Source: Planctomycetota bacterium
GTDB taxonomy: Bacteria; Planctomycetota; Planctomycetia; Gemmatales; Gemmataceae
Reading direction: 5' to 3'
DNA length: 41,533 bases
Assembly (NCBI GenBank): GCA_016873095.1
Contig: VGYC01000049.1
Location: 1-41,533 of the forward strand
The notes under the pieces are model-generated. The model had not been told where the DNA came from and made no database searches. It saw only the letters and a list, made by a program, of their open reading frames with translations. Both the position numbers and the translations under genes were made by a program. Shown in pieces: positions 4,744 to 13,531 of this stretch; within the stretch, counting starts at the first letter, position 1; each line of letters opens with the position of its first letter.

Positions 4744-5931
4744 TCATGCAGCGAGCCTTCGTGTCGCTGCCGGTTGCAGAATGTGCATGAGCCGCTGATA
4801 GTGCTGTTCGAAGGTCCAGCGGGCGGCAGTCTGGCGTGCTGCCTGGGAGCAGACGAGACGCCGCGAGGGGTCGAGAAGCTGTGCCATGCACCAGGCCAGA
4901 TGGTTTGTGTCGTGCGGCGTGTCGATGACGTAGCCCTCTTGCAATGGCCGCAAGAGTTCGGTCGCGCCGTTTTGACGCGTCGTGATGACGGGCAGGCCAC
5001 AGGCCAGCCCCTCGAGCACGACCAGCGAGCAGGGATCGTAGAACGTGGGATGGACCAGGAAATCGGCGGCGAAGAAGCCGCCGGTGATATCGTCGCAGTT
5101 GCCGAGGAAGCGGACATGCTTGTCGATGCCGAGTGATAGCGCCATGCGGCGAAACTCGCGCGTGCGCGAGCTGCCGGCGACCACGAGCCGAAACCCGCTG
5201 GAACGGCGGAACTCGGCGCGCCGAGTGAGGCGTTGCACAGCCAGCAGCAACGGCTCGAGGCCCTTGAGTCGATAGTTTCGGGCGACGAACAGGGCCACGG
5301 TTTCCGTCGGCGCCAGGCCATGCCTGTGCCGCCAGTCCACGCGATGCCGCGGCCGGTCCGGTTGCTGGAATCGCTCGGGATGGATGGCGCTATGCACTAC
5401 ATGCACCGAGTCCTCGGCGATACCGTAATAGCGTTGAAAGTGTCTTTGCACCATCCGGCTGTTGACGACGATCAACGGTCGCTGCGCTTCCAGGTACTGC
5501 CGGCGTTCCAGACGGCTGAACGACCAGTGTCCGAGATCAAAAGTCTTGCCGAGCCTCGCCAGGACACGGCCAAGTCGGCCCCGATGCTTGTCGCGATTGT
5601 GCTCCACCGTGGCGGCGTGCAAGCCTCCCTGTGGGAAGAGCACGTCGAGCCCCCAGGTCTTGTCGAAGCCGATCGTCAGGTCGTGTCTTGCGTTCGCAAG
5701 CGCTTCGTGACAGCGGCGGCTGAAACGCCATGGCCGCAGGAAGCGCGGCCCGGGCACGCGCGGCAGGCGATGATAACGGATGCCCGCAGGCAACGCCGCC
5801 ACATCCCAGCGGCACGCGTACAGGTGCACCTCGTGCCGGTCTGCCAGCAAGCGCCGGGCAAGATCGGCGATGTACGTCTCGCAACCGCCGCGCGCCGGCT
5901 TCACATGCTCATGGCAGAATGCGAAGTTCAT
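4744..5931 (-). CDS. GT4-type glycosyltransferase, WaaG-like
   Basis: The 395-residue protein has the two-Rossmann GT-B layout. The N-terminal domain opens with a donor/acceptor loop containing RGGCETYIADLARRL, and the C-terminal nucleotide-sugar domain carries the typical EGLACGLPVITT motif with the family's acidic residue just before it. In LPS loci this type adds a hexose to the heptose of the inner core, acting at the cytoplasmic face of the inner membrane. It is the last gene of the minus-strand LPS run. Its ATG overlaps the stop codon of the upstream kinase gene in an ATGA, which implies translational coupling. The acceptor is inferred from context. A general GT4 enzyme for another surface glycan remains possible. 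Confidence 0.85.
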   Translation of the reverse strand: MNFAFCHEHVKPARGGCETYIADLARRLLADRHEVHLYACRWDVAALPAGIRYHRLPRVPGPRFLRPWRFSRRCHEALANARHDLTIGFDKTWGLDVLFPQGGLHAATVEHNRDKHRGRLGRVLARLGKTFDLGHWSFSRLERRQYLEAQRPLIVVNSRMVQRHFQRYYGIAEDSVHVVHSAIHPERFQQPDRPRHRVDWRHRHGLAPTETVALFVARNYRLKGLEPLLLAVQRLTRRAEFRRSSGFRLVVAGSSRTREFRRMALSLGIDKHVRFLGNCDDITGGFFAADFLVHPTFYDPCSLVVLEGLACGLPVITTRQNGATELLRPLQEGYVIDTPHDTNHLAWCMAQLLDPSRRLVCSQAARQTAARWTFEQHYQRLMHILQPAATRRLAA

Positions 5932-6854
5932 GCTTGACTCTTGAGTCGTTTCTTGTCGTTGTGCCGCTGGTAGAAAAACGCCTTGACGCGGATGGTCCAG
6001 GCCAGCCAGCGTCCCCAGAAGGATCTGCGCGCCGCACCCAGGTAGGTCCGCCAGAATCGCAGCCGGTCGCGAGCCTCGATGCCTTCAAGGTCTGACGAGA
6101 AGAGCAGCTGCGCCAGATCCTTCACGCGCCAGATGGTAGACAGCACGCGATGATGTGCCAGGCGATGGAGGTCAATCAGGTGGACCTTGCCGCGCCATGC
6201 CGTACCCGGCCAAAGCTCGTCACGGCGAATGAAGAAGTGGCACAGGTACAGGTCGCTGTGGAAATGCCGGCGCAGGTGCAGCTCTCGTGCCAGCCGCGCC
6301 AGTTCGCTGACCAGACCATTCTTCCACGCCTGAAAGTCGGCGGGATGCAACATCCGCGCCGCTCGCGGAATCGCCTGGTGCAGAGGCAACATGTCGACGA
6401 GTTCCTCGATGGCGAGAAAGCTCTGCATCTTGCCCCACGGTCCGACAAACTCGCCGGCCGCCACCGGTACCGGTACCGGTAGACCGTTGCGCTGGGCCCA
6501 GCGCAGATGACGGCATTCCTGCCAGGCCGGCGACCAACCGTTCCCGGGCCACAGGGACGCCAGCCAGCCGGCCCAGCGCGGCAATCGATAATGCCGCTTC
6601 AGGTAAACGGCGAGCCGCTGTCCATCGCGCTCGACAACCAGGCGTCCGGTGGAACGGCCCTGCTTGGCGTGAAACTGATCCGTGACCTCGACCTGCATGA
6701 CACGCTCGGCCCAGTTGTCGCCGAGCAGAAATCGCCAGTCCGGTCTGGCAAAGATGCGTCGCCAGCCGTGCGTGAGTCGCCGCCACGGGGAGGTGGGGGC
6801 GCAGTCCCCGCGCAAGGACTCGGTAGCCTCGAACTGGACGGCCTCCCGCTTCAT
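5928..6854 (-). CDS. Kdo/WaaP-type lipopolysaccharide core kinase
   Basis: The protein has 308 residues when started at the ATG at 6854, which overlaps the preceding stop in an ATGA. A longer open frame upstream lies inside the neighbour gene and is not used. The fold is the eukaryotic-like kinase of the WaaP/KdkA group, which phosphorylates heptose or Kdo of the LPS inner core. The probable ATP-binding lysine is in VYLKRHYR near residue 86. The catalytic loop reads HSDLYLCHFF at 199-208, and the metal-binding segment reads LIDLHRL at 226-232. All are consistent with an active enzyme. It sits between a second kinase gene and the WaaG-like transferase, so the pair probably decorates neighbouring sugars of the same core. 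Confidence 0.85.
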   Translation of the reverse strand: MKREAVQFEATESLRGDCAPTSPWRRLTHGWRRIFARPDWRFLLGDNWAERVMQVEVTDQFHAKQGRSTGRLVVERDGQRLAVYLKRHYRLPRWAGWLASLWPGNGWSPAWQECRHLRWAQRNGLPVPVPVAAGEFVGPWGKMQSFLAIEELVDMLPLHQAIPRAARMLHPADFQAWKNGLVSELARLARELHLRRHFHSDLYLCHFFIRRDELWPGTAWRGKVHLIDLHRLAHHRVLSTIWRVKDLAQLLFSSDLEGIEARDRLRFWRTYLGAARRSFWGRWLAWTIRVKAFFYQRHNDKKRLKSQA

Positions 6855-8533
6855 GCGGAGAGCACCCCCTGCAACTTGTCGCGCTTGCCGGCTCTCGGGA
6901 CGTCGCGCAATCGCAACGCCAGGATGGCCGCGATCCAGCCGCGCAGTTCTCGCGCCGATACCGTGCCATCGGTTCGGGCCCTTGTGCCGGATCGATCTTC
7001 CCAGCACGCCGCCAGCGCGCCGTCACCGCCGTGGAGATAGGCCTGCAAGAAGCGCAGCGCTTCCGTTCGAGTGACGCAGGTACGCGCCTGTTTGAGCAAT
7101 CGCCGCAGATCACACACGGCGTGCTTGCGGCGGGGTCTGCGGTCTCTCGTGAGACTGCACGCCGAGCGCAGCCACGCACCCTGATCCGCACCCGAAACGC
7201 CGAAGGCATGCAGCACGTCCGAGCCGGCGCGAAAGCGGTAGCCCGCCTGATGGATGCGCCGCAATTGCTCGGCAACTTCGCGAAGCGTGCGATGCCGCTG
7301 CCAGTCAAATGCCTGATTCAACCATGTTCCCAGCGGCCGCAGCGCGACTGGCTCTTCGGTGAGCAAGAACGAGCTCGATTGCCAGGGGCGCCGCCGGTGC
7401 TGGCCCACTGCCAGTACGCGCGGCAGCGCCACGCCGAAGCGTTGCAGCCGAAAGACCGTCGCGGCAAGTTCCAGTTCCGGCGACGGCAGCGCACGCAGGC
7501 GCAGGCAATGCCACAGCCAGCGGAATGGCCGCATGGCTTGACGACGGATCAGCTTCGCGGAGCCGCCGCCTGGCAACACAACGTTCTTCTCGACAACCGC
7601 CTCGGCTTGCCCTTCCGTCCGAAGCCGCGGCAGCCAGTCGGGCACTTCGCCGCGCAGCTCGTTACGAAACTCCTTGGTGACGCACAGCGCTTCGCCATCG
7701 AGCCAGACGAGATTCTGCTGCTCTGCCGGCAAGGGCGGCTGCCGCAACTCGCGGATGTGACGTTTGCGCAGCATCGTTCGCGCCATCGCTCGGATCGTGC
7801 TCGCCAGATACGTTCGGTCTTGCCGCAAGATCACCTGAGAGGAGCAGGCCCGGACATACGCGATCAGGCAGGCCAGGCGCTCGCGCGGCGTTGCCAGACC
7901 GTCGGCCAGCGTGGCGTGCAGCGTCCCCAGGTCGCGGCAGCGCTGGCCCCACGAGACGCTGCCGGCCAGGCGTGAACGTTGCCAGTCCAGAAAGTGAAAC
8001 AGAAATCCGTCGCCGGCCGGTTCCACGAGCACGTGCTTCGCGTACAGGTCGCGATGGGCCAGTCCCGATTGATGAATGCGTGCCAGCTCCGCGCCCAGTT
8101 GTCTGGCCAGTTGCCGGCGCATGCGCGGGTTCGGGTTTTCCTGAAGAAAGCGGCGCAGGTCGCTGGCCCGTTCCATCTCGCGCGCCAGCAGGAAGGCCTG
8201 TCCGCCGCTCTCCCCGGCCGCAAGAATCTCCGGCGATGCAATGTTGTGTCTGGCCAGCTCCGGTCGTAGCTTCATCTCCTTGCATGACTTCGACACGAAG
8301 CCGAAGCCAGCGAGCTGATTCGTCAAGCGATCGCGCCAGCGGACGCGGTGTTCTCGTTTGAGGTACAGTGACAGCGATCGCTCGTCATCGCCGAGACGGA
8401 CGTGGGCGACGTTGCGGTCGGGGTGGCCGCAAATGATGACACCGGACAGCTTGAGGAAATCGCCGGCGGCGCAGAGACCGAGTTGTTGCAGCCAGTCGTG
8501 ATACCGCGGATGAATGAACAGCTTCGCCATCAC
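6851..8533 (-). CDS. Tandem WaaP-like kinase with an apparently inactive second kinase domain
   Basis: At 560 residues this is about twice the usual WaaP/Kdo kinase length. The first half (about 40-260) is a complete kinase: YLKREHRV near 57-64, HRDLYAKHVLV at 160-170 and FLDWQRSR at 181-188. The second half (about 290-520) keeps the same overall plan, including a helix ending in RRIHQAG near 425-431. The catalytic loop that follows reads YRFRAGSD instead of HRDL, with no obvious metal-binding Asp, so it looks like a pseudokinase. The start is either GTG at 8533 or ATG at 8530; both overlap the stop of the heptosyltransferase. The second domain could regulate or scaffold the first, or could hold the acceptor glycan. 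It is coupled to the next kinase gene by an ATGA overlap. Confidence 0.8.
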   Translation of the reverse strand: MMAKLFIHPRYHDWLQQLGLCAAGDFLKLSGVIICGHPDRNVAHVRLGDDERSLSLYLKREHRVRWRDRLTNQLAGFGFVSKSCKEMKLRPELARHNIASPEILAAGESGGQAFLLAREMERASDLRRFLQENPNPRMRRQLARQLGAELARIHQSGLAHRDLYAKHVLVEPAGDGFLFHFLDWQRSRLAGSVSWGQRCRDLGTLHATLADGLATPRERLACLIAYVRACSSQVILRQDRTYLASTIRAMARTMLRKRHIRELRQPPLPAEQQNLVWLDGEALCVTKEFRNELRGEVPDWLPRLRTEGQAEAVVEKNVVLPGGGSAKLIRRQAMRPFRWLWHCLRLRALPSPELELAATVFRLQRFGVALPRVLAVGQHRRRPWQSSSFLLTEEPVALRPLGTWLNQAFDWQRHRTLREVAEQLRRIHQAGYRFRAGSDVLHAFGVSGADQGAWLRSACSLTRDRRPRRKHAVCDLRRLLKQARTCVTRTEALRFLQAYLHGGDGALAACWEDRSGTRARTDGTVSARELRGWIAAILALRLRDVPRAGKRDKLQGVLSA

Positions 8534-9582
8534 GACGCCTTCCGTTCAGGAGAAAGCAGGGACACCGCTGCCGCAAACACATCGTCGACTGTGAGCAGCT
8601 TCATGCATTGGTGGTCCAGAGGGCATTCCCGAAGCTGACACGGTCCACAATCGACCTTTTTCTGCAGGTGCACGGCTGCCGGGTGATAGGTCTCTGTCCA
8701 GGCAATGTGCGTGGGACCGAAGAGAGTGACAACGGGCCGGTCGAACGCTGCCGCGAAATGCCGCGGGCCGCTGTCCGTCGTCACCAGCAGGCTCGCGCGC
8801 TTGATGCACGCCTTGGTAAGTCCCAGCGACAGTCCACTACCGCTCAACTCGCTCAGGGCATGGACCCCCGACCGGCGCGCGTCGCGGGCGATGTCGCGGG
8901 CCAGCTCTTGTTCCTTCGGCCCGCACAGCACGAGCACGCCACAGCCGCGGCGATCGACGAACTCCCGAGCTACCTGCACGAATCGTTCTTTGTCCCAGTA
9001 CTTGGCCGACCCGAAAGCAGCGCCCGGATTCAGGCAAACGACCTCATTCTTGGCAGCAAGACGCGACGTCTCCCAGACCTGGTCGGCGGCCTTCTCATCG
9101 GCAGCGGTCGTGGCCAGTTCCATGCGATAACCGGGATTCGGACATCCCAGCACAGCCACCAGACGGTTGAAGGCATCGATGGCTGGCGCCGGTTTCAGCC
9201 AGCCGCGCTCATCGCGCAGTGGCTCCAGGCGATCGCTGAGCAAGAAACCGCGGCCGTAGAGCCGGTAGCCGATGCGGCGCCGGCAACCGGCCAGCCGCGC
9301 CACCAGGGCCGCGCGAAAGGTATTTGGAAACAGGATGGCGGCGTCGATCTTCTCGCGGCGCAGCTGCCATGCGATGGCCGGACCGCGGTGCCGCCATGCG
9401 CCTCGCTTGCTGAGCAGCACCTGCTCGTCCAGCAACGGCGAGCCTTCGAGTACGCCGGCGACATATGGCCGGGCAATGCCAAGGATTCGCGCATCGGGAA
9501 AAGTGTGCCGCAAGGCGCGCAAGGCCGGCGTAGCCATCACCACGTCGCCAACCCAGTTCGGCAAGAATGCAGCAATCTTCAT
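8530..9582 (-). CDS. waaF: ADP-heptose:LPS heptosyltransferase (WaaF-like, GT9)
   Basis: The 350-residue protein has the GT9 signatures. The N-terminus reads LPNWVGDVVMATPALRALR. The ADP-heptose region has NPGAAFGSAKYWDKERF, then TTDSGPRHFAAAF and TLFGPTHIAWTETYHP. The C-terminus carries DCGPCQLRECPLDHQCM, typical of heptosyltransferase II. It transfers L-glycero-D-manno-heptose from ADP-heptose to the growing inner core at the inner face of the cytoplasmic membrane. The donor is made by the hldE product encoded 70 bases upstream. The short gap to hldE contains two copies of CTCTCTCAGG. Only one heptosyltransferase is present in this window, so the number of core heptoses cannot be told. Confidence 0.92.
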   Translation of the reverse strand: MKIAAFLPNWVGDVVMATPALRALRHTFPDARILGIARPYVAGVLEGSPLLDEQVLLSKRGAWRHRGPAIAWQLRREKIDAAILFPNTFRAALVARLAGCRRRIGYRLYGRGFLLSDRLEPLRDERGWLKPAPAIDAFNRLVAVLGCPNPGYRMELATTAADEKAADQVWETSRLAAKNEVVCLNPGAAFGSAKYWDKERFVQVAREFVDRRGCGVLVLCGPKEQELARDIARDARRSGVHALSELSGSGLSLGLTKACIKRASLLVTTDSGPRHFAAAFDRPVVTLFGPTHIAWTETYHPAAVHLQKKVDCGPCQLRECPLDHQCMKLLTVDDVFAAAVSLLSPERKAS

Positions 9583-9652: not shown

Positions 9653-11140
9653 TCAGGCGGCGCGCAAGCGCTCCAGCAGCGAACTTGTCGAGAAGCCGTC
9701 CTGGAATGTGGCCAGGTGAATGCGCCCGCCGTAACCGCTCACGAAATCGCCGCCGACGACCTTGTCGCGCGTGTAATCGGCGCCTTTCACCAGCACATCG
9801 GGCCTCACTGCCGTGATGAGTTCCAAAGGAGTGGCCTCTTCGAACACCGCGATGAAATCTACCGCATGCAGTGCCGCCAGCACCCTGGCGCGTGCGGGCA
9901 GCGGTTGTACCGGCCGTTGCGGTCCCTTCAGGCCGCGCACGCTGGCATCGCTGTTCAGCCCGACCACAAGCACGTCGGCCTGGGCCCGCGCTTCCTGGAG
10001 ATACTGCACGTGTCCGGCGTGCAAGAGATCGAAGCAACCGTTGGTGAAGGCGACGCGCTGGCCCATGCGCCGCCGGCTGTCCAGTTCCCGGCGCAGAGCG
10101 TCCCAGGCAAGCAGCTTGTCGTTGTTTTGCGGATCGCGCGAGGGACGCGTTCGCAGCAGGTCGCGAAGGATCTCATCGCGAGTGACAGTGGCGACGCCGA
10201 TCTTCTCGACTTCGAGGCCGCCGGCGACGTTGGCCAGCGCGATGGCCGATTCGTAATCGGCGCCGGCCGCCAGCGCCATTCCCAGAACGCTCATCACCAT
10301 GTCGCCGGCGCCCGTGATGTCGTATACCTGCCGCGCACGGGTGGGGAACAGCTTGTAGCGACCGTCGCGGTGCTTCAGCGCCATGCCGTCCTTGTCCAGC
10401 GTGATGATGGCGGCTTCGAGATCCAGCTGTTCACGAAGTTGTGCCGCGGCTTCCATGACCTCGCCGGCATTGTGCAACGTCCGGCCGGTGGCGAGGCCCG
10501 CTTCCAAACGGTTGGGAGTCATTGCCGAGCAACCATGATAGCGACGATAGTCGCTGCTGCGGATGGGATCCGCCAGCGTGCGCAGATTCATGGCCCTTGC
10601 CGAAGAGATGATCCCGGACAGCAGCTGCGTCGTGCACACGCCCTTGTCGTAGTCGCTGATGAGCACGATGTCCGATTTCTTGAGCAGATGCTGCGCGACG
10701 CCGAGTAGTTCCGTTGTCAGGGTGTCGGACAGGGGCCGGCGATCCTCGTAATCGACACGGATCATTTGTTGCGGATGGCGATGCTGGGCCCGGCCGATGT
10801 AACGCTCCTTGACGGTGCTTGGCCTGGCAGGATCGTTGAGCACCCCTTCGTGATCAATGCCAAGGTCGCCGAGCATCTGGCGGATCCGGCCGCCGTCCGC
10901 GTCGTCGCCGACCACGCCGGCCAGCGCTACCTTGGCCCCCAGGGCCCGCAGCATGGTGGCCACGCTGCTCGCCCCGCCCAGGCGTTCTTCCCGGCGATCG
11001 GCATGCAGCAGGATTACCGGCGCCTCCTGGCTGATGCGCTCGGCATCCCCCCAGACGTAACGGTCCAGCATCAGGTCGCCCACCACCAGTACGCGCGGCT
11101 GGCCGAGACGCTGCACCAGGTCGATCAACTCCGCAGACAT
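9653..11140 (-). CDS. hldE: Bifunctional heptose-7-phosphate kinase/heptose-1-phosphate adenylyltransferase
   Basis: The 495-residue product makes ADP-D-glycero-D-manno-heptose precursors in the cytoplasm. The N-terminal PfkB/ribokinase domain has VVGDLMLDRYVWG near 19-31, LGGASSVA near 54-61 and the anion-hole motif DITGAGDMV. From about residue 360 the cytidylyltransferase-like domain has FTNGCFDLLHAGHVQYL, followed by LNSDASVRGLKG and a FSTSSLLERL tail. The ATG at 11140 is chosen because GGAG sits seven bases upstream and the family begins there. A longer open frame upstream runs through an AT-rich repeat and is not protein-like. The gmhA, gmhB and hldD partners are not in this window and must lie elsewhere for the pathway to work. 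Confidence 0.95.
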   Translation of the reverse strand: MSAELIDLVQRLGQPRVLVVGDLMLDRYVWGDAERISQEAPVILLHADRREERLGGASSVATMLRALGAKVALAGVVGDDADGGRIRQMLGDLGIDHEGVLNDPARPSTVKERYIGRAQHRHPQQMIRVDYEDRRPLSDTLTTELLGVAQHLLKKSDIVLISDYDKGVCTTQLLSGIISSARAMNLRTLADPIRSSDYRRYHGCSAMTPNRLEAGLATGRTLHNAGEVMEAAAQLREQLDLEAAIITLDKDGMALKHRDGRYKLFPTRARQVYDITGAGDMVMSVLGMALAAGADYESAIALANVAGGLEVEKIGVATVTRDEILRDLLRTRPSRDPQNNDKLLAWDALRRELDSRRRMGQRVAFTNGCFDLLHAGHVQYLQEARAQADVLVVGLNSDASVRGLKGPQRPVQPLPARARVLAALHAVDFIAVFEEATPLELITAVRPDVLVKGADYTRDKVVGGDFVSGYGGRIHLATFQDGFSTSSLLERLRAA

Positions 11141-11152
11141 CCATGTCTCCGT

Positions 11153-11245
11153 ATTCTTGATTCTTGGTTTTTGATTTTTGATTGGGCGATCGCCCGGCAT
11201 GACTGCATCCGGGCAATCATGAATCAAGAATCGCAAATCAAAAAT
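11153..11245. repeat. Inverted pair of five-unit heptamer arrays in an intergenic gap
   Basis: Two 35-base arms face each other, 11153-11187 and 11211-11245. Each is exactly five heptamers on the pattern ATTCTTG or ATTTTTG, and the innermost unit changes to ATTGGGC or ATTGCCC. The right arm matches the left as an imperfect palindrome (25 of 35 positions by eye), separated by 23 bases that include GCGATCGC at the left junction. The element is sharply AT-rich against its GC-rich surroundings. It fills the 109-base gap between the conserved unknown gene and hldE, and could fold as RNA in the operon transcript. Short heptamer arrays are known as dispersed repeats in cyanobacteria; whether this is a dispersed planctomycete repeat cannot be seen from one copy. 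Confidence 0.8.
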
Positions 11246-11249
11246 GGTT

Positions 11250-12281
11250 TCACGCCGCCTGGGCCTTCTCCTTGTCCCTCGGAGCCTGGCCGGCAAGCTG
11301 GCAGGCGAGGGCCACATGCAAGAGCGGCAGCAGGATTTCGTGGTGGCCGATCATTTCGATGCCCTCGGCGGACGGGCGTTCGAGGACATTGACTCGCGAG
11401 CGATACTGCACCTGCTTGTCGAAGTTGACCGTGATGAGGCCGTCGAGATTGTGGCCAAAATTACGAGCGACCGCGACGGCCTTGACGAACACCTCGGGCA
11501 TGACGACGGCGCTGCCGAGGTTCATCCACACGCCCTCGCACATGGAGGCCACCACGCCGCACAGCCGGCGAAAATCGATGAGCGACGCCTCGCCCACGGC
11601 CGCGCCGGACACGTGCGGGTGCATGTGCACGATGTCGGTGCCCAGGGCCACGTGCACGGTACAGGGAATGCCGGCGCGATACGCTGCGAGCACGATGCTG
11701 CTCTCCGCGTGCGGGCAGCCGATGTTCTCGATGTGCTGCCCCAGCGCCCAGCCTAGCCCCAGATCCTTTTCCGAGCCAAGACGCGAGGCGACGGCAAAGG
11801 CATCGGCCGTCTCGCGGGCCATCCCGAAGTCGCCGGTGGGCAGTTGCTTGCCAACGTCCTCGCTGGTCTTGCCGGCCAGAGCCAGCTCGAAATCATGGAT
11901 CGCCGCCGCACCGTTGAGGGCAACCGCCTTTAGCACGCCTTGCCGGATCCAGTCGATGAGATAGGGGCCGCAACCCGTCTTGATGACGTGCCCGCCGATG
12001 GCGGCGGCAACCGTGCGGCCCGTGTAGAAGGCCCGTGCCAGGTGCTGGCACAGCCGCCGCAGGTCGTTGCCGGCGAGTTGCCGCGGCAACGCCGCCAGCC
12101 AGTCCTGCACCGTGGCATCGGCGCAGACGGGCCGGCCAAGATCGTCGTGAAACACCTTCGATGGGCGTGAGTTCAACTCATAGGTCTTCAGACCGCTCAG
12201 GTCGAAGGGCCGATGGGTTTGCAAGGCGTCGCCCCACGAATGGCAGCACGGCCGTGGGCTGACCGGAATTGTTCCTTCCAT
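11250..12281 (-). CDS. Conserved protein of unknown function in the LPS operon
   Basis: The 343-residue protein starts at the ATG at 12281, behind a strong AAGGAGGG. The upstream extension of the frame is discarded. Conserved-looking blocks are AIGGHVIKTG near 95-104, ALNGAAAIHDFELALAGKTS near 121-140 and, later, a run ending HMHPHVSGAAVGEAS and VNFDKQVQYR. I recall closely similar proteins in delta-proteobacteria and planctomycetes, sometimes labelled deoxyhypusine-synthase-like and often near heptose or lipid A genes. I cannot confirm that assignment, and the classic deoxyhypusine synthase motifs are not obvious. The glycine- and histidine-rich blocks suggest a Rossmann-like or metal-binding enzyme. 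Its place between lpxK and hldE suggests a role in envelope sugar or lipid metabolism, which is inference. Confidence 0.7.
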   Translation of the reverse strand: MEGTIPVSPRPCCHSWGDALQTHRPFDLSGLKTYELNSRPSKVFHDDLGRPVCADATVQDWLAALPRQLAGNDLRRLCQHLARAFYTGRTVAAAIGGHVIKTGCGPYLIDWIRQGVLKAVALNGAAAIHDFELALAGKTSEDVGKQLPTGDFGMARETADAFAVASRLGSEKDLGLGWALGQHIENIGCPHAESSIVLAAYRAGIPCTVHVALGTDIVHMHPHVSGAAVGEASLIDFRRLCGVVASMCEGVWMNLGSAVVMPEVFVKAVAVARNFGHNLDGLITVNFDKQVQYRSRVNVLERPSAEGIEMIGHHEILLPLLHVALACQLAGQAPRDKEKAQAA

Positions 12282-12373: not shown

Positions 12374-13456
12374 TCAACGCCTTGACGGCTCGGCGGGAGT
12401 CTCACCCTCCCGAAGACCGCAAGCGGTTAGCAACTTCTCTTGCAGCGCTTCTTGCCCCGTCTCCACTTCCAGTTCGATCCGCAGGGCCCACAGCTCGCGC
12501 GCGCCGAGACGACTGACGCGCAGCTTGACCAGATCCTTCTGCGTGGTGAGCAACGGCAATCCCTCAGGCTGGCCTTGTCCCCAGGCGCGCAGATCCTCAA
12601 CATCCGTGCGCGTGTATTCGTGATGGTCGGCGAAAGTCCGAAAGGCGACCACGTTTATGTTCAGGTTTGCCAGGGTGCGTTCAAAGGCGTCGGGGTTGCC
12701 GAGGCCGCAGAATGCCGCCGCCGACCGCCCCGCTAACTCCTCCAGGTTCCGTGTTGCTCCGTCACTGTTGACGAAGCAGGCCGGGCGATGTCGTGTCGCC
12801 GCCACGGCCGCGGCAGGGGCCAGGCGCTGGACACGATCTGTCAGCTTCCGCAACTCTTCCCGATCCACCAGGTCGCAGCGTGTCAGCAACGCCATGTGGG
12901 CGCGTGCCAGGCTCGAAACCGGCTCGCGCAACAGTCCCGCCGGGAAAAGCCGGCCATGCCCCCACGGATTGGTCGCATCGATCAGCACGATGTCGAGATC
13001 ACGGTGCAGCCGGCGATGCTGAAACCCGTCGTCGAGAACCAGGACCTCGCTTTCCAGTTCCGTCACCGCCGTCTCCGCAAGGGCCACGCGATCGGGATCC
13101 TGCAGGTGAGGCACGTCCGCAAGATTCTCCTCCAGTACAAGCGCCTCGTCATTGCGCCCCTCACGGCCACCGTAGCCGCGACTCAGGATGGCCACGCGCA
13201 CGTCGTGCTGCCGGAAGTAGCGAGCGATCCACTCGACGCATGGCGTCTTGCCCGTGCCCCCCAGCGTCAAATTGCCGACGCTGATGACCGGCACACGAGC
13301 GCGATGACTGGCCAGCAGGCCCCAGTCGTACAAGCAATTCCGCAACCGAACCGTCATCCCGTAGGGCACGCTGGCCGCCCACAGTCCCCCGCGCAAGAGC
13401 ATCGCCCCGAGCCCCCGCGCTTCGCCGCGGACCAACGAATGATAGCGCTCGTGCAC
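12374..13456 (-). CDS. lpxK: Tetraacyldisaccharide 4'-kinase (lipid A biosynthesis)
   Basis: The protein has 360 residues from a GTG start at 13456. LpxK phosphorylates the 4' position of the lipid A disaccharide precursor at the inner membrane. The P-loop reads SVGNLTLGGTGKTP at about 59-72, and LVLDDGFQHRRLHRDLD lies near 140-155; both are family signatures. A longer open frame begins with a TTG at 13531, but that TTG is the first base of a TTGACA promoter box, while GGGAG lies just ahead of the GTG and the family N-terminus aligns there. This is the first gene of the minus-strand envelope run and the best evidence that the organism makes a true lipid A. Confidence 0.92.
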   Translation of the reverse strand: MHERYHSLVRGEARGLGAMLLRGGLWAASVPYGMTVRLRNCLYDWGLLASHRARVPVISVGNLTLGGTGKTPCVEWIARYFRQHDVRVAILSRGYGGREGRNDEALVLEENLADVPHLQDPDRVALAETAVTELESEVLVLDDGFQHRRLHRDLDIVLIDATNPWGHGRLFPAGLLREPVSSLARAHMALLTRCDLVDREELRKLTDRVQRLAPAAAVAATRHRPACFVNSDGATRNLEELAGRSAAAFCGLGNPDAFERTLANLNINVVAFRTFADHHEYTRTDVEDLRAWGQGQPEGLPLLTTQKDLVKLRVSRLGARELWALRIELEVETGQEALQEKLLTACGLREGETPAEPSRR

Positions 13457-13501
13457 GTCCGCTCCCGCTGTCCTGTTTTCGTCCGTGATCCGGGGGATGG
13501 G

Positions 13502-13531
13502 AAAATACCACGATCTTAATTTGGGTGTCAA
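13502..13531 (-). promoter_or_regulatory. Sigma-70-type promoter ahead of lpxK and the LPS run
   Basis: Reading the minus strand, TTGACA (13531-13526) matches the -35 consensus exactly. After 18 bases, TATTTT (13507-13502) matches four of six -10 positions. Transcription would begin about 40 bases ahead of the GTG start of lpxK. It is the only strong promoter I can see for the whole seven-gene run. Confidence 0.65.

Follow-up and report, generated by a model that had tools for sequence, protein, structure and literature searches.

A probable pseudokinase domain, conserved and joined to a predicted lipopolysaccharide core kinase, in planctomycetes of the family Gemmataceae

Background

A protein encoded in a putative lipopolysaccharide (LPS) core operon of a Gemmataceae planctomycete raises the question of whether its second half is a kinase domain that has lost its activity next to one that has not, and, if so, what such a domain would be kept for. 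The gene lies in a stretch of 41,533 nucleotides (hereafter, the window; contig VGYC01000049.1 of the GenBank assembly GCA_016873095.1). The original prediction, made from the sequence of the window, was that the first half of the protein contains all kinase motifs, that YRFRAGSD takes the place of the catalytic loop in the second half, and that this second domain might be an allosteric or acceptor-binding module.

To our knowledge, nearly all work on regulatory pseudokinases has concerned eukaryotes. WaaP, KdkA, lipopolysaccharide and planctomycetes are all absent from a 2025 review of bacterial pseudokinase families (PMC12599244), and a survey of the microbial kinome gives KdoK as a family and does not contain the words pseudokinase or catalytically inactive. 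The bacterial families described so far (ActPs1-3, GLW, CP1, DYD and DLHK) are also conserved pseudokinases of unknown function but, unlike the domain analyzed here, derive from Ser/Thr protein kinases (PMC12599244). Our search of a mostly open-access literature for pseudokinases in connection with WaaP, Kdo kinase or Planctomycetes returned nothing on this protein. The WaaP fold and pseudokinases as a class are known; no report was found, in the literature searched, of a conserved pseudokinase that forms part of an LPS core kinase and is fused, in many species, to another kinase.

The open reading frame and its operon

Judging by sequence and structural model, the 560-codon open reading frame (ORF) is a tandem of two WaaP/Kdo-type kinase domains, denoted D1 and D2 (Table 1). 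The frame opens with GTG at position 8533, directly followed by ATG at 8530 (GTGATGG), and a start at this ATG, giving 559 aa, is as likely as one at the GTG. The motifs quoted in the original prediction were all recovered: in the first half, HRDLYAKHVLV begins at aa 160 and LDW occupies aa 182-184, and in the second half HQAG-YRFRAGSD (aa 428-439) is the counterpart of HQSG-LAHRDLYA in the first.

Table 1. Features of the D1-D2 ORF and of the surrounding operon, in window coordinates
Feature	Position	Strand	Evidence or remark
LpxK, lipid A 4'-kinase	12374..13531	minus	PF02606 2e-81
Syntenic DS-like ORF, 375 aa	11250..12377	minus	weak matches
HldE, bifunctional ADP-heptose synthesis	9653..11317	minus	true start maybe further in
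Heptosyltransferase II (WaaF-like)	8530..9582	minus	TIGR02195 156.8 bits, cut-off 134.6
Tandem WaaP/Kdo-type kinase (D1) and pseudokinase (D2), whole ORF, 560 aa	6851..8533	minus	
D1, catalytic-type kinase domain, aa 1-262	7748..8533	minus	Pfam PF06293 1.7e-25; residues conserved in 54 homologs
D1 catalytic loop HRDLYAKH, aa 160-167	8033..8056	minus	
D1 metal-binding LDWQ (DFG equivalent), aa 182-185	7979..7990	minus	
D2, predicted pseudokinase domain, aa 268-507	7013..7732	minus	AlphaFold2 model; best PDB match WaaP 6dfl
D2 degenerate catalytic loop YRFRAGSD, aa 432-439	7217..7240	minus	
C-terminal tail, aa 508-560, not conserved	6854..7012	minus	homolog matches stop near aa 507
W, WaaP-like kinase, 308 aa	5928..6854	minus	intact motifs KQGRS, HSDLYLCH, LIDLH
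GT4 glycosyltransferase, final gene of the conserved set	4744..5931	minus	

The proposed LPS core setting holds as well: LpxK, HldE, a heptosyltransferase II, a second WaaP-like kinase (hereafter, W) and a GT4 glycosyltransferase surround the ORF, and a Kdo-transferase-type gene (PF04413) is present in the same genome. The order LpxK-(DS-like)-HldE-WaaF-D1D2-W-GT4 is kept in nearly every adequately flanked locus of two Gemmatales families. The D1-D2 ORF starts inside the WaaF stop codon, and ATGA overlaps join it to W (6854-6851) and W to GT4 (5931-5928), which makes translational coupling likely. The presence of an outer membrane and of LPS genes in Planctomycetes, including Gemmata, has been argued from genomes (PMC3422733). 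The DS-like ORF between LpxK and HldE is odd for an LPS operon; its deoxyhypusine-synthase/ArgZ-like matches are weak (E 0.0014-0.008; PDB 3c2q, E 0.0065), and it is syntenic in most Gemmatales loci and absent from one Gemmata-type subclade.

The catalytic-type domain

The Pfam Kdo/WaaP family (PF06293) matches the ORF with an E-value of 1.7e-25 (90.2 bits against a gathering score of 21.3), best over aa 57-210. The catalytic set of D1 consists of the β3 Lys (K59), the αC Glu (E86), the HRD motif (H160-D162), H167 replacing the Mg-binding Asn, and the DFG-type D183; among the D1 domains of 54 homologs, K59, E86, H167 and D183 are invariant, D162 is found in 50, and H160 also varies. On the curated equivalog models for RfaP (NF011703, cut-off 170) and KdkA (NF002475, cut-off 142), D1 scores 63.6 and 46.3 bits, and W 92 and 27.5 bits, in each case below the cut-off, so neither D1 nor W is an RfaP equivalog. 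D1 is predicted to be a kinase of the WaaP/Kdo-kinase superfamily that phosphorylates an LPS core sugar. WaaP (RfaP, the LPS core heptose(I) kinase; PDB 6DFL) has the same fold as D1, D2 and, by sequence, W, resembles D1 and W in its catalytic residues and is likewise encoded beside a heptosyltransferase, but it is a single-domain, acyl-ACP-stabilized protein without a pseudokinase partner. KdkA (Kdo kinase; PRK01723, PF06293) shares the superfamily and motif pattern of D1 but is also a single-domain protein, and its model is matched by D1 only below the cut-off.

The D1 loop is intact in the window. In one large clade, it reads TPDL(T/S/A)AKH, with changes at the positions of WaaP H161 and Y165, both of which are essential in Pseudomonas aeruginosa (PMC6147952). 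Five genomes from two genera (TPEL), as well as locus L056 (TPAL), have a substitution of the catalytic Asp itself. Y164 is lost too, and eroding loops are found in L021, L025, L026, L056, L083 and L090 and in the TPDL clade. The W loop is retained in every locus where W was seen complete, which, together with the altered D1 loops, suggests that D1 may be becoming a second pseudokinase in the TPD, TPE and TPA lineages, with W as the sole live enzyme there.

The fold of the second domain

The second half alone does not stand out in searches of family libraries. Nevertheless, a search of the whole PDB with a D2-only sequence profile identified WaaP (6DFL) as the sole match (E 8.9e-13), comparison of the D1 and D2 profiles using hhalign gave an E-value of 2e-22 over 183 columns, and in reciprocal hmmsearch the profile of each half matched the other half in nearly every homolog. 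The AlphaFold2 model of D2 alone (44 relatives; pLDDT 88.6, pTM 0.86) contains N-lobe strands, the αC helix, β4-β5, αE and a small C-lobe. Foldseek initiated with this model ranked 6DFL first (3.5e-9), and VIA-align matched the two with a Z-score of 16.4 over 202 residues, above Bud32/PRPK. The model, the structural matches and the profile match converge on a WaaP-like kinase fold for the second half, rather than a non-kinase fold. D2 sequences form one monophyletic group in the tree (support 100/99), on a long stem whose branching relative to D1, W and group T2 (see below) is ambiguous.

Loss of the catalytic and acceptor sites in D2

The sites were compared by mapping D2 on D1, using 46 Gemmataceae D2 sequences and 54 D1 sequences. 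The position of the β3 Lys (K59) is Lys in none of the 46 D2 and is occupied by V, I, L and other residues (I329 in the window); that of the αC Glu (E86) is Glu in a single sequence, with L, Q or A elsewhere (L356); the HRD Asp (D162) is retained in seven and otherwise G, R, P or A (HRD162 becomes F434-R435-A436); the Mg-binding H167 is replaced by A, G or L (A443); and the DFG-type D183 is retained in 10 and otherwise S, G or R (S457). D2 accordingly lacks the set of catalytic Lys, Glu, HRD Asp and DFG Asp expected of an active Kdo/WaaP kinase. In P. aeruginosa WaaP, the mutants K51A, D163A, D188N, H161A, Y165A and H168A did not grow, and E78A nearly abolished function, with a 128-fold effect (PMC6147952); to the extent that sequence can show it, the joint loss of the equivalent residues in D2 rules out the known form of catalysis. 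The structural αF Asp (WaaP D206), which braces the HRD loop, is retained in 78% of the D2 domains, so that D2 appears to have kept the scaffold and lost the chemistry. The degenerate loop is kept family-wide, and the alignment of homologs thus agrees with the structure prediction in backing the original claim that an LPS core operon encodes an active-type kinase with a pseudokinase attached to it.

Because the window belongs to a draft assembly of 548 contigs, the broken loop might be attributed to a sequencing or assembly error, or to recent decay in one genome; all 46 homologous D2 domains share the defect, which refutes these explanations, as it does chance, and leaves them a negligible probability. 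Catalysis of a different kind, through migrated residues, has precedents among kinase-fold 'pseudokinases': SelO proved catalytic in another way, and SidJ reportedly did so as well. An enzyme, however, normally keeps an invariant catalytic set, and the 44 aligned D2 sequences contain no invariant residue at all (L, R, P, L, A, G, F and H are nearly invariant), which makes this scenario very improbable.

Of the two roles suggested for D2 in the original prediction, the allosteric one is possible and is favored (see below), and the acceptor-binding one fared less well. Y165, H168 and R191 are essential acceptor-site residues of P. aeruginosa WaaP (PMC6147952); in D2, the first of these positions holds P, G, A or D, the second A, G, L or P, and the third is S460 in the window, and a pocket of the WaaP type is disfavored because all three equivalents are lost. 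More broadly, D2 could bind a substrate, the LPS core or a lipid, and present the acceptor to D1 or W, between which it sits. Such a role would fit the conserved features specific to D2, namely an N-terminal motif, QxLVWLxGEAxC, and an αC/β4 stretch, and the WaaP C-lobe is known to hold the acyl chain of acyl-ACP (PMC6147952). Given that the WaaP acceptor residues are replaced and that the best conserved columns of D2 are hydrophobic or structural, we consider substrate binding unlikely.

Two-kinase proteins with an intact second loop also exist. Besides D1-D2, the source genome carries another Gemmataceae tandem (G000:C129, a 601-aa frame; L102, 2582-4384) which likewise has two PF06293-type domains per chain but retains both loops (HHDLHAGN...LVDLH and HRDLKAAN...LIDLVG); tandem layout alone, therefore, does not entail a dead second half. 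This tandem and its relatives in several Gemmataceae (L103-L107) span 560-637 aa, with L107 located in a 911-aa open frame, and the loops are intact where read. As homologs that might contradict the loss in D2, these proteins (complete sequences for L102-L104, profile matches for L105-L107) were rejected: they belong to separate tree groups, T1 and T2, and are not orthologous to D1-D2. Another planctomycete two-kinase protein (L070, 524-2548), followed by a GT4 gene, is a tandem of the reverse order, with a degenerate first half (FDGNLHFRN, HRD Asp replaced by Asn) and an intact HRDLYAKH in the second.

The predicted fold and the residue comparison together show D2 to be a descendant of a kinase of the WaaP/Kdo superfamily in which the fold has been kept while the capacities for ATP binding and catalysis, and the acceptor site of the WaaP type, have been lost.

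Conservation and distribution of D2

The query protein is matched in 91 of 99 related genomes, and within Gemmataceae many of the matches cover both halves. The named relatives belong, with few exceptions, to Gemmataceae or to unclassified planctomycetes; the collection scan used a 6-row alignment, an 18-row alignment offering no sufficiently conserved stretch. In a 294-genome sample of the phylum, D2 scored 253 bits in the source genome and at most 86 bits in the others, which is what generic relatives reach, so that D2 was not detected in this sample outside Gemmataceae. Records labelled Bacteroidales and Candidatus Kuenenia (L047, L060) contain the Gemmataceae operon and are probably mislabelled metagenome bins. 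In two loci D2 is aberrant, owing either to a metagenome-bin frameshift or to real truncation: it is broken off midway ahead of the W gene in L034 (9968-11215), and is highly divergent and recognized only in part in L069 (9827-11872).

In nine close pairs, the dN/dS ratio of D2 is 0.07-0.30, similar to or somewhat above those of D1 and W; by this measure D2 is under purifying selection and is not junk. At the same time, it is the fastest evolving of all domains, with a tree length of 18.9 compared to 12.0 for D1 and 9.2 for W. Possessing a kinase fold devoid of the canonical catalytic motifs and being evolutionarily conserved, D2 has the sequence and structural properties expected of a pseudokinase, and it is almost certainly one that is maintained by selection.

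Domain architectures

Three architectures are observed, namely (i) D1 and W adjacent, without D2, in a sister Gemmatales family (L062, L065, L066); (ii) D1-D2 followed by a separate W, in the window and in most Gemmataceae; and (iii) all three domains in one uninterrupted frame (D1-D2-W, 848-1186 aa), in thirteen loci (L027, L029, L037-L042, L044, L057, L059-L061). The sister-family D1 nests inside the Gemmataceae D1 in one tree, so both a gain of D2 in Gemmataceae and its loss in the sister family are possible. The tree does not call for repeated origins of the three-domain fusion, since a single change suffices when unsupported forks are left open. For the L038 fusion (831 residues, 13 sequences), the model (pLDDT 82, pTM 0.69; relative domain placement uncertain) has WaaP as the best PDB match, on D1 (Z 19.3), and its pTM allows a fixed three-domain arrangement.

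These architectures bear on the possibility that D2 is a passive spacer or fold-stabilizer, that is, a tolerated duplicated domain. D2 is absent from the sister family, is shortened or scarcely recognizable in a few loci (L034, L069) and evolves the fastest, all of which would fit passivity. However, its dN/dS ratio is low, it is kept across many genera, and both lobes contain conserved motifs; moreover, because the chain without D2 is viable in the sister family, an unneeded D2 should often have vanished. We therefore regard a passive D2 as improbable.

A possible role for D2

The location of D2 between two kinases of the live type, its fusion with them, and the loss of ATP-binding and acceptor residues from a retained scaffold are best explained if D2 is a partner of D1 without catalysis of its own and, in addition, a docking piece for W. 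This combination of D1 as the kinase and D2 as its non-catalytic, W-docking partner is the best overall explanation, to which we assign a probability of about one half. Under the mechanism that we propose, D2 would act without chemistry, packing on D1 and either stabilizing it or setting it allosterically, and would provide a docking face for the next enzyme, W; D1 and W could then act as a single unit in phosphorylating the Kdo/heptose core as it grows, D1, D2 and W being a single polypeptide in many species. The Kdo/heptose core as the presumed target is suggested by the protein family and the operon. The order and fusion of the genes, together with selection on D2 and its rate covariation, point to the packing, setting and docking steps tentatively, and a little less firmly than to the overall explanation.

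The evolutionary rate of D2 covaries with that of D1 (rho 0.49, p 8e-4; 43 branches, corrected by non-kinase neighbors), a correlation that the sharing of one chain could by itself yield. The covariation of D2 with W is not significant (rho 0.22), so that for docking of W the evidence consists of gene order and fusion; for LpxK, HldE, WaaF and GT4 the values are about 0. There is a precedent for a stabilizing partner: P. aeruginosa WaaP is insoluble without bound acyl-ACP, a protein that is not its substrate (PMC6147952), and dependence on a protein partner is thus not foreign to the family. The rapid evolution of D2 and the D2-less sister family count against the proposed mechanism. A stronger version, an LPS core unit of three kinase folds in which D2 is indispensable and coordinates two sugar phosphorylations by coupling them allosterically, is conceivable but doubtful.

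Implications

In animals, dead kinase domains likewise occur beside live ones, in JAK (JH2-JH1) and in the Fam20A-Fam20C pair, and act on the live partner by allostery. These proteins differ from D1-D2 in that they belong to unrelated families with unrelated substrates, and the pairing does not reflect common descent. D2 would add an LPS glycan kinase family with its own conserved pseudokinase to the bacterial families described so far, which stem from Ser/Thr protein kinases, and would give the regulatory 'dead kinases' of animals a bacterial counterpart that is open to testing and available in dozens of Gemmataceae species. Relatives without D2, with D2 on a chain separate from W, and with all three domains fused are natural controls, and with these variants the question of why dead kinase domains persist beside live ones becomes testable in a small bacterial system. 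The finding also bears on how the LPS core is decorated by planctomycetes, the outer membrane of which has long been disputed.
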